From contig NZ_ANFX01000008.1 in NCBI RefSeq assembly GCF_000331285.1, forward strand, positions 124,001 through 188,000: DNA of 64,000 bases. Direction: 5' to 3'. This document shows positions 34,835 through 59,694 of the stretch, one piece after another. Position 1 is the stretch's first letter. Each line of letters opens with the position of its first letter. The translations under genes were made by a program, and so were the position numbers. This stretch comes from Porphyrobacter sp. AAP82. Lineage in GTDB: Bacteria; Pseudomonadota; Alphaproteobacteria; Sphingomonadales; Sphingomonadaceae. The notes beneath the pieces were generated by a model. It searched no databases. It had not been told where the DNA came from and saw only the letters and a program-made list of their open reading frames with translations.

Positions 34835-35014
34835 TTTCCTACAGCCGGGGCAACAGGCTATGACCGATGCCCGCGCGGGCGGTTCGGGCGGGTGCGCTGA
34901 AGGGATGAATCGCCGCGCCATGTGTGAACTTCGATTTTGCGCTCCAAGGCTCTGATAGAACGAACAAATATCTGTAGGATTGCAGATTTTGCAATGTGAA
35001 CTTCGTGAACTTCG
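34835..35014 (-). repeat. GAAGTTCAC intergenic element, copy A
   Basis: Read on the minus strand from 35014 to 34914, this 101-bp module begins CGAAGTTCACGAAGTTCACA, contains TCCTACAG and TATTT near its middle, and ends CGAAGTTCACACATGGCGCG. Copy B at 59504-59604 has exactly the same length, identical 20-base ends and roughly three quarters identity overall (hand alignment, no gaps). Beyond it, CTGTAGGAAA (34844-34835) is complementary to the internal TCCTACAG (34979-34972). It fills most of the gap between the amidohydrolase and nitronate monooxygenase genes. Function unknown: sRNA, cis-element or small mobile repeat. Confidence 0.8.
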
Positions 35015-35109: not shown

Positions 35110-36114
35110 ATGCCCCTTCCCGCCCCCTTCGATCGTCTGCGCCTGCCGCTGATCGGATCGCCGCTGTTCATCGTCTCCGGCCCCGAACTGGTGATCGCGC
35201 AGTGCAAGGCCGGGATCATCGGCAGCTTCCCGGCACTGAACGCGCGGCCCCAGTCGCAGCTCGACGAGTGGCTCCACCAGATCACCGAGGAACTGGCAGC
35301 GCACAACCGCGCCAACCCCGATCGCCCCGCCGCGCCCTTCGCGGTCAACCAGATCGTCCACAAGACCAACGACCGCGTCGATGCCGACATGGCCACTTGC
35401 GCAAAGTGGCAGGTGCCGATGGTCATCACCTCGCTGGGCGCGCGCGAGGATATCTACACCGCCGTGCGCAATTGGGGCGGCGTGACGATGCACGACGTCA
35501 TCAACAACCGCTTCGCGCACAAGGCGATCGAAAAGGGCGCGACCGGGCTGATCCCGGTGGCGGCGGGTGCGGGCGGGCATGCCGGCGCGCTTTCGCCCTT
35601 CGCGCTGATGCAGGAAATCCGCGAGTGGTTTGATGGTCTCGTCGCGCTGTCGGGGGCGGTCGGGCACGGGGCGACGATCCTTGCAGCCCAGGCCCTGCGC
35701 GCCGATTTCGCCTATGCCGGCAGCGCCTTCATCGCCACGAAGGAAGCGAACGCCGACCAGGCTTACAAGAACGGCATCGTCGCAGGCTCGTCGGAAGGGA
35801 TCGTCTATACCAACCTGTTCACCGGGGTGCACGGCAATTACCTGCGCTCCTCGATCGAGGCGGCGGGGATGGACCCCGACAACCTGCCCGAAAGCGATCC
35901 GAGCAAGATGAATTTCGGCAGCGGCGGCAACACCAAGGCCAAGGCGTGGAAGGACATCTGGGGATCGGGCCAGGGGATCGGAACGATCAAGGAGGTCGGC
36001 ACGGTCGAGGATCTGGTCGCCCGCTTCGAGCGCGAATATCACGCGGCCAAGGCGCGGCTTGCGGCCAATTCGGGCTATGCCTCATGGGCAGCGCTGGCCG
36101 AGGCGGCGGAGTAG
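35110..36114 (+). CDS. nitronate monooxygenase (2-nitropropane dioxygenase family)
   Basis: A protein of 334 residues. The N-terminal LPLIGSPLFIVSGPELVIAQCKAG forms the first FMN-barrel strand. GLIPVAAGAGGHAGALSPFALM provides the phosphate-binding and active-site region, and AYAGSAFIATKEANADQAYK follows. Class I enzymes oxidise alkyl nitronates with FMN; some members are acyl-carrier enoyl reductases or of unknown role. RBS GAGGAG lies 6 bases before the ATG. The upstream gap contains repeated element A in the opposite direction. Confidence 0.88.
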   Translation: MPLPAPFDRLRLPLIGSPLFIVSGPELVIAQCKAGIIGSFPALNARPQSQLDEWLHQITEELAAHNRANPDRPAAPFAVNQIVHKTNDRVDADMATCAKWQVPMVITSLGAREDIYTAVRNWGGVTMHDVINNRFAHKAIEKGATGLIPVAAGAGGHAGALSPFALMQEIREWFDGLVALSGAVGHGATILAAQALRADFAYAGSAFIATKEANADQAYKNGIVAGSSEGIVYTNLFTGVHGNYLRSSIEAAGMDPDNLPESDPSKMNFGSGGNTKAKAWKDIWGSGQGIGTIKEVGTVEDLVARFEREYHAAKARLAANSGYASWAALAEAAE

Positions 36115-59503: not shown

Positions 59504-59694
59504 CGAAGTTCACGAAGTTCACACCGTGAATTTCGCTTTCCTACAGGTATTTCTCTTTATTCCCAATATCTTCGCGCTGAAAAGCGAAGTTCACACATGG
59601 CGCGCGATTTGCGCGTTTTCGCGTCCGCTCAACAGGCTGGCCGACAATGTGAAAGAACAGGGGCGATCCTATACTGCCACGGCCGTGTAGGAAA
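59504..59694 (+). repeat. GAAGTTCAC intergenic element, copy B
   Basis: The 101-bp module at 59504-59604 starts CGAAGTTCACGAAGTTCACA, contains TTTCCTACAG then TATTT, and ends CGAAGTTCACACATGGCGCG, exactly as long as copy A at 34914-35014. TGTAGGAAA (59686-59694) is complementary to TTTCCTACA (59537-59545), 9 bp, so the roughly 190-nt span could fold into one large hairpin. It lies between panB and the convergent BASS gene, filling the gap. Its TTCAC-x3-GTGAA near the start (59517-59531) may be a small hairpin. Confidence 0.8.

Follow-up and report, generated by a model that had tools for sequence, protein, structure and literature searches.

Two intergenic repeats of Porphyrobacter sp. AAP82 belong to a dispersed family of rigid repeat arrays, most of which are followed by a promoter-like box. 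Both lie in the window, the 64,000-nucleotide stretch of DNA that was analyzed. Our preferred interpretation, held at a little short of even confidence, is that the family is a dispersed promoter-operator cassette bound by fast-evolving proteins and IHF. The window repeats would then be type A copies of a cassette of about 200 bp, located mostly between convergent genes.

The array and its two copies in the window

Letters read at both sites confirmed the location and opposite orientation of the two copies given in the original prediction. The rigid array module (R1, R2, R3, core, IHF-like site, R4) of copy A occupies 34920–35014 on the − strand (CM match, 86.9 bits) and that of copy B 59504–59598 on the + strand (CM match, 74.9 bits); both copies were in the training set of the CM that scored them. 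The predicted likeness of the pair was also found: the copies aligned without a gap over 101 bp (73% identity), had the same letters in their 20-base ends, contained three GAAGTTCAC words each, and shared a TCCTACAG-x-TATTT core. These exact words are R1, R2, and R4, at 35005–35013, 34996–35004, and 34924–34932 (− strand) in copy A and at 59505–59513, 59514–59522, and 59586–59594 (+ strand) in copy B. Seven GAAGTTCAC words were present in the window versus 0.23 expected, and six of the seven were inside the two modules.

Other parts of that description needed revision. The fixed length of 101 bp was true of copies A and B, but the unit conserved among all copies was about 95 bp; in the alignment of own-genome copies, the terminal GGCGCG of A and B was rare among the remaining copies. 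Both copies do point at the 3′ end of the adjoining gene, but only copy B lies between convergent genes, copy A being flanked by two + strand genes. Nor was the 101-bp element the whole object: a second conserved block was found beside both copies, with its GTAGGAAA 172 bp from R1 in copy A and 183 bp from R1 in copy B.

In copy A this promoter-like block is at 34835–34864 (+ strand), as assigned from a box match, the letters read, and the consensus of 64 sequences. It contains TTTCCTAC (34835–34842), an 18-bp spacer, and an extended −10 sequence, G-C-TATGAC (TATGAC, 34859–34864), and is directed to its module and to the ORF that starts at 35110; a counterpart of the start-region box of other copies was not recognizable in it. 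The copy B block was identified by a pattern match at 59643–59694 (− strand; contig C8:183643-183694 of the same genome) and is directed towards its module, with TTTCCTAC at 59694–59687, a −10 of TAGGAT (59671–59666) or of TATAGG two bases closer to the box, and the conserved start region GTTCTTTCACATTGTC at 59658–59643. All three occurrences of TTTCCTAC in the window were in the two cassettes, one of them being the internal core of copy B.

The original prediction stood or fell with the existence of further copies, and many were found, both in the own genome (G000; 2.9 Mb, 52 contigs) and in relatives (designated by other G-numbers, with loci given L-numbers). Seventeen type A modules of G000 were aligned; a model of these returned 18 matches, the same 17 and a decayed type B module. 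The alignment of the 17 copies was gapless and had 96 columns, of which 40 were invariant and clustered in blocks, and the weakly conserved interior described for the window copies was seen across all of them. Each module consists of the tandem 9-mers R1 and R2, then R3, the core, an interior of fixed length with an IHF-like site, and R4 in the same direction as R1 and R2. R1 and R2 in type A are GAAGTTCAC GAAGTTCAC, and R4 is GAAGTTCACAC. R3 is a small inverted repeat that in types B and C is related to inverted R2 and in type A is mostly ATTGCA..TGCAAT.

Spacing was determined for 85 copies from five genomes (G000, 17; G364, 20; G001, 17; G339, 16; G409, 15). The offset of R4 from R1 was identical in 84 of the 85; among 12 further G001 and G339 copies examined by eye, R4 was shifted one base outward in three. 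A match to WATCARNNNNTTR, which we take to be the IHF consensus, was found at a single fixed interior offset with at most one mismatch in 29 of 84 copies and with none in 7 of 84, the copy with the displaced R4 being left out; shuffled interiors gave a mean of 0.12 and a maximum of 2. The fixed IHF-like site fits a predicted IHF-assisted nucleoprotein site. Further conserved interior columns were TT at 47–48 and AAA at 77–79. Type C copies of G001 and G339 (for example, L105 and L120) had at least six G or C about 10–20 bp past R4; by eye, this run was present in nearly all type C copies read, in either orientation.

The promoter-like box, its helical register, and selection

Beyond R4 there is a linker of variable length and then the second block, with the end TGTAGGAAA. 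The promoter-like box lies about 70–125 bp past R4 and is oriented back into the array. GTAGGA[AC]A was present within 420 bp in 79 of the 85 copies, at 160–217 bp from R1 in 76 of them and only beyond 320 bp in three; it was missing over that distance from the remaining six. Read on the opposite strand, the block gives TTTCCTAC, 17–18 bp, an extended −10 (G-N-TA), and the start region G[CT]TCTTTCNCATYGTC. Over 64 distinct sequences, the −10 had T at 81% and A at 75%, with G at −14 in 73%. Because the pattern used to select these sequences fixed the box and the start region, only the −10, which is less conserved than the box, counts as free evidence. The spacing (17 ± 1 bp in a sigma-70-type promoter) and extended −10 fit sigma-70, but TTTCCTAC differs from TTGACA, and we know of no sigma factor whose consensus this −35-like box matches. 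A promoter reading rightward from the plus strand of the second block was rejected for its unsuitable spacing.

Distances from R1 to the box grouped near 161, 172, 183, 193, 204, and 213 bp. With one copy taken per orthologous locus and the box required within 300 bp (32 loci, types A–C), the mean Rayleigh nR2 was 10.7 at 10.5 bp, and the best value over 9.5–12 bp averaged 11.4 versus 2.1 for jittered distances. The box is thus in helical register with the array in types A–C; in the 15 type D copies, helical phase was not significant.

Purifying selection acts on R1, R2, R4, and the box. Substitutions between G001 and G339 orthologs (15 pairs) numbered 4/285 in R1R2, 4/195 in R3, 1/165 in R4, and 0/112 in the box, compared with 62/589 in the linker, 74/865 in the left flank, 200/2959 in the left gene, and 89/520 in the interior. 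In ten G000/G409 pairs with type A in both, the numbers were 5/190, 17/130, 0/110, and 0/64 for R1R2, R3, R4, and the box, compared with 58/313 in the linker, 94/582 in the left flank, and 101/347 in the interior. The start region past the −10 was weakly constrained (13/237 and 22/136 substitutions). The interior changed faster than the linker, which may reflect only a missing pressure of the kind that keeps the genome GC-rich.

Motif types, and the exchange, gain, and loss of units

Cassettes at the same addresses in related species carry other motifs, which we classified as types A–E. The original prediction covered neither the promoter-like box nor this change of motif between lineages. Type A was present in G000 and in 11 of the 15 fetched G409 copies, type B (GAAGTTTAC AAAGTTGAC ACTGTAAACTTCG) in G364 and in 4 of the 15 G409 copies, and type C (GAAGTTGAC AAAGTTGAC AGGGTGTCAAG) in G001 and G339. 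Judged by flanking DNA, 16 of the 17 G000 copies have a same-orientation ortholog in at least one of the four other genomes, and five sites are occupied in all five genomes. Window copy B, downstream of panB, has a type B counterpart in G364 (L131).

Interior identity was 0.60–0.80 in the ten G000/G409 pairs with type A in both genomes; in the four A/B pairs it was 0.51, 0.37, 0.63, and 0.51, which is the background seen between non-orthologs (0.51). The two sets had similar left flanks, and their right flanks had identities of 0.63–0.75 (A/B) and 0.69–0.88 (A/A). Because the A/B interiors are at background and the left flanks are alike, we read the array as the exchanged unit; the somewhat lower similarity of the A/B right flanks means that the exchanged piece may extend past R4. 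Between distant species, the interiors of orthologs were no more alike than those of non-orthologs, and therefore replacement can be separated from in-place change for G000 and G409 only. One type adjoined another at two sites: at L182 of G409, type A is followed by type B at +114 bp, and at L007 of G000 (C12:39326-39550), type A is followed by a decayed type B at +137 bp. L007 is possibly a snapshot of replacement.

Model R1 matched 16 of 114 genus genomes, and model R2, with ten candidates scored per genome, matched 24 of 396 order genomes in six of 84 genera. Of the 114 genus genomes, 59 contained the exact pattern of the distal block; the control gave no match. Sorting by eye of the DNA upstream of 30 of these matches gave 12 arrays of type D, 6 of type E, and 5 of types A–C; the rest were 4 with GTGTCACC or GTGTGACC at steps of about 21 bp and 3 others. 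Type D words are GGTGACA, GCGGACA, and similar; type E words are GGAACACATGGAACAC or GAGACAC forms. The distance from palindrome to R4 in type D was fixed at 71–73 in 15 copies from 11 genomes (66–78 allowed; three candidates without a clear palindrome left out). The GTGTCACC/GTGTGACC arrays (L245, L246, L266, and L271), with steps that by eye are two helical turns, stand in front of the same distal block as the cassettes.

Where this was tested, in types B and C, the motif was dedicated to the modules. G001 had 24 copies of the type C palindrome TTGACANNNTGTCAA, G339 had 22, and G303 had 3; the control had none. In G001 and G339, 16 + 16 were in modules fetched earlier and one in each was the recF copy; the remaining 7 and 5 were all fetched and were all modules. 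The palindrome is thus confined to modules in these two genomes, with no stray operator near a regulator gene. Within 400 kb of G364, all eight GAAGTTTAC, all five AAAGTTGAC, and four of six GAAGTTGAC words were in modules, the other two GAAGTTGAC words being outside any module. The same 400 kb contained 12 TTTCCTAC: one in a module core, three in coding sequence (two of them called as ORFs and the third judged by reading), and eight intergenic. Each of the eight heads an array, of type B in five cases and of type D in three. Ten TGTCCTAC words were outside this tally. Because the B and D arrays share TTTCCTAC, two families exist in parallel in a single genome and have the same promoter design; in G000, at least one cassette (L259) is of type E. 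The genomes counted had about 17–24 copies per type, or around 20 in the species counted. Extrapolation for G364, from 20 type B copies and three type D per 400 kb, gives about 40 or more cassettes per genome.

A reading that we hold somewhat more tentatively than the cassette itself is that these are orthogonal cassettes: parallel families of about 20 copies that would differ from one another in operator word and binding protein but share a promoter design. As lineages diverge, the words would be replaced wholesale at the same addresses by a new array landing beside the old.

Other repeats were encountered in the searches. Eleven loci (among L046–L070) of the MAG Sphingomonadaceae CP_BM_ER_R7_8 had 12 exact GAAGTTCAC tandems with another continuation, GCGACGATGTTNCGTGACAGCGACTCGCT in about half of the loci; about seven loci had a GTAGGACAG box. 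G391 had 36 exact GAAGTTCAC tandems. G003, of the same genus, had 54 parS-like 16-mers, TGTTNCACGTGNAACA, across its whole chromosome (for example, L275–L288); four relatives had 3 apiece, G437 had 1, and G364 had 11. By eye, the G003 sites adjoined tandem 11-mers, GGGTCTGNNNN, in about 12 of the 14 stretches read. This TGTTNCACGTGNAACA/GGGTCTGNNNN array is a separate dispersed element.

At two sites, panB-SBF and recF, some genomes had the whole cassette and others lacked it cleanly, with no discernible target duplication at either site. For panB, 30 of 111 matching genomes were read, and the next gene was an SBF transporter in 21. Only G000 and G364 had the cassette there (2/21; 2/30 genomes read); in the 19 without it, the SBF sequence starts about 25 bp or less past the panB stop (by eye), and no box was found at panB in the 9 genomes with a different neighbor. 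At the recF site and two others, 30 of 62 places were read. The recF cassette was of type A in G000, C in G001 and G339, and B in G364 (L138); it was absent, with the genes close-set, in G384, G428, and G417, and different repeats occupied the site in G409, G412, and G315. In G315 (L352) these form an array of GGGTCTG 11-mers, and no parS was present in the stretch read; in G412 and G409 (L341, L346), they are TCGTCATTGCGAG palindromic repeats. The third site was occupied, always with a box, in four genomes (G364, type B; G315 and G412, type D; G339, type E); in G001, G384, G409, and G428, no box lay within 290 bp. The fourth had a cassette in G364 alone of eight genomes.

Gene context, determined with a simple ORF caller for the 85 copies, was convergent in 44, both leftward in 17, both rightward in 11, and undecided or mixed in 13. 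Thirty of the 33 own-genome flanking ORFs were scanned; 23 had a Pfam family and 7 had none, and no transposase, recombinase, or phage gene was among them. The assigned neighbors include panB, folP-like, LysRS, recF-like, dcd-like, and ribA-like genes. A regulon with a single function was rejected, the flanking genes being functionally unrelated. The original prediction that the array is not a decaying transposon is supported by selection on R1, R2, R4, and the box and by the lack of transposases nearby, yet whole units have been gained and lost.

Regulatory and other readings of the cassette

The rigid array with its palindromic operator, extra half-sites, IHF-like bend, and phased promoter-like box suggest a promoter-operator unit with DNA wrapping. 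A sequence-specific DNA-binding protein would bind R1, the R2/R3 operator, and R4 as a single array; a bend made by IHF or HU at the fixed site that separates R3 from R4 would bring R4 to R1–R3. The resulting complex would lie on a set helix face relative to the promoter-like box about 70–125 bp past R4. Transcription from the box would run into the array, and the complex might activate, repress, or road-block the promoter. The binding protein, IHF binding, promoter activity, and sign of regulation are all predictions from the DNA letters. Because the operator words differ and the box design is shared, there would be several related proteins whose specificity shifts between lineages.

The predicted transcript in most copies heads for the 3′ end of the convergent gene, and there is no obvious regulated gene. 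A purely regulatory unit also leaves unexplained the appearance and loss of whole units between gene ends. Because units come and go and array types adjoin, some mobility must occur. We weighed a non-autonomous, MITE-like mobile element whose repeats would bind a recombinase or transposase encoded elsewhere, with the box as its other end; lineages would differ where a new enzyme was acquired and its copies spread and displaced the old. The whole units present or absent between otherwise close genes (panB, recF), the new type adjoining the old at L182 and L007, and the background interior identity of the four G000/G409 A/B pairs (0.37–0.63, with 0.60–0.80 in the ten A/A pairs) all agree with such an element. 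Fixed mobile copies should decay evenly, however, whereas R1, R2, R4, and the box are nearly unchanged and the interior and linker have changed; neutral decay fits poorly because the repeats and box are under selection. Length is constant to within one base, the 30 flanking ORFs scanned contained no enzyme gene of this kind, and no terminal inverted repeats were seen by eye, R1 and R4 being direct repeats and the far end TGTAGGAAA. Nor was there a convincing phage or plasmid carrier: the type B consensus had no match in the phage collection and 20 records in the plasmid collection, each with at most 36% query cover (E 0.06–0.8); one type C unit had a single 23-bp plasmid match; and exact words in IMG/VR gave none for types A, C, and D and one contig (L355) for type E. 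A phage or plasmid origin was rejected on these results. We consider the MITE-like element rather unlikely, although it and the promoter-operator reading may both be partly true.

A chromosome-organizing site like matS, parS, or BIME, that is, a nucleoprotein anchor at convergent gene ends with the box as local transcription or a second protein site, would account for dispersed copies whose neighbors have no common function, for the 44 of 85 copies at convergent gene ends, and for the fixed IHF-like site and dedicated motif. By eye, the 20 G364 copies had no evident clustering at the terminus or origin (parS cluster, about 0.41 Mb) and no fixed polarity, on which a replication-terminus or origin site was rejected; lineage-specific motifs and parallel types in one genome would not be expected of a single anchor. 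We regard this as improbable, and as still less probable a set of sibling small RNAs started at the box, which would share GCUCUUUCNCAUYGUC as their 5′ end and vary in the rest of the molecule. The promoter-like block, the conserved start region, and the location between convergent genes favor such RNAs, but the start region is weakly constrained, no conserved terminator was seen by eye, and neither module covariation nor an Rfam match was found. Rfam at gathering scores gave one tRNA and nothing else over the window, and at E 10 no match around copy A; in the 17 type A copies, none of 11 predicted pairs had two-sided change. The original prediction had offered an RNA or a protein-binding array. 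On these results a structured RNA was rejected, and protein binding was retained from the rigid spacing, selection, fixed IHF-like site, phasing, and module-confined motif. Because base spacing is fixed and phasing is at 10.5 bp, we favor an element acting at the DNA level over a small RNA.

Two further identities were rejected. The LexA site is GTTC-N7-GTTC, from which the repeats differ in spacing, and a short ORF in type A (ATGTGTGAACTTCG...) lacks its start codon in some copies (by eye).

The cassettes also share features with several known systems. RIB and RIP forms of REP/BIME elements contain an IHF site. REP/BIME elements of enterobacteria resemble the cassettes in being dispersed, non-coding, often at gene 3′ ends, and made of protein-binding repeats (PMC2817692). 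They number in the hundreds, in contrast to the roughly 17–24 cassettes per type in the genomes counted, and the cassettes have rigid direct repeats, a phased promoter-like box, and a lineage-varying motif. Their 95-bp modules contain direct 9-mers, not high-copy palindromes of 20–40 bp. The specificity of stoperators co-evolves with the binding protein. Like the cassettes, the stoperators of cluster A mycobacteriophages are many dispersed sites of one dedicated protein (PMC9283540). The cassettes differ in being chromosomal, with no phage found, and in having a multi-repeat array, an IHF-like site, and their own promoter-like box. MITEs and ERIC/IRU elements are likewise small, discrete intergenic units of about 100–200 bp that are present or absent (PMC10969869, PMC2759123). 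The cassettes have no inverted termini, and they show purifying selection on each copy and fixed spacing. Lambda-type attP sites combine tandem arm-like sites of 9–10 bp, an IHF bend, and a second motif at a phased distance. The cassettes share arm-like tandem sites, an IHF-like bend, and a phased second motif but have no adjacent integrase, attL/attR pair, or paired cores, and are present in about 20 copies. Because each of these systems shares some features and fails others, we consider the architecture to be of a new kind. Erythrobacter cryptus appears in a published table of REP counts (PMC12306157); no published description of the cassettes was among the matches listed in a literature without most subscription journals.

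If the promoter-operator reading is true, these units are an undescribed class of dispersed cassette in a bacterial family, annotated as empty intergenic DNA. They form a natural series in which spacing was kept and the recognition sequence was exchanged several times, and from which the co-evolution of protein and site would be directly readable. The operator words of the different types may serve as orthogonal parts. If the cassettes are indeed orthogonal, the family would have co-evolving proteins and dispersed sites under turnover, in units that appear partly selfish and partly functional.
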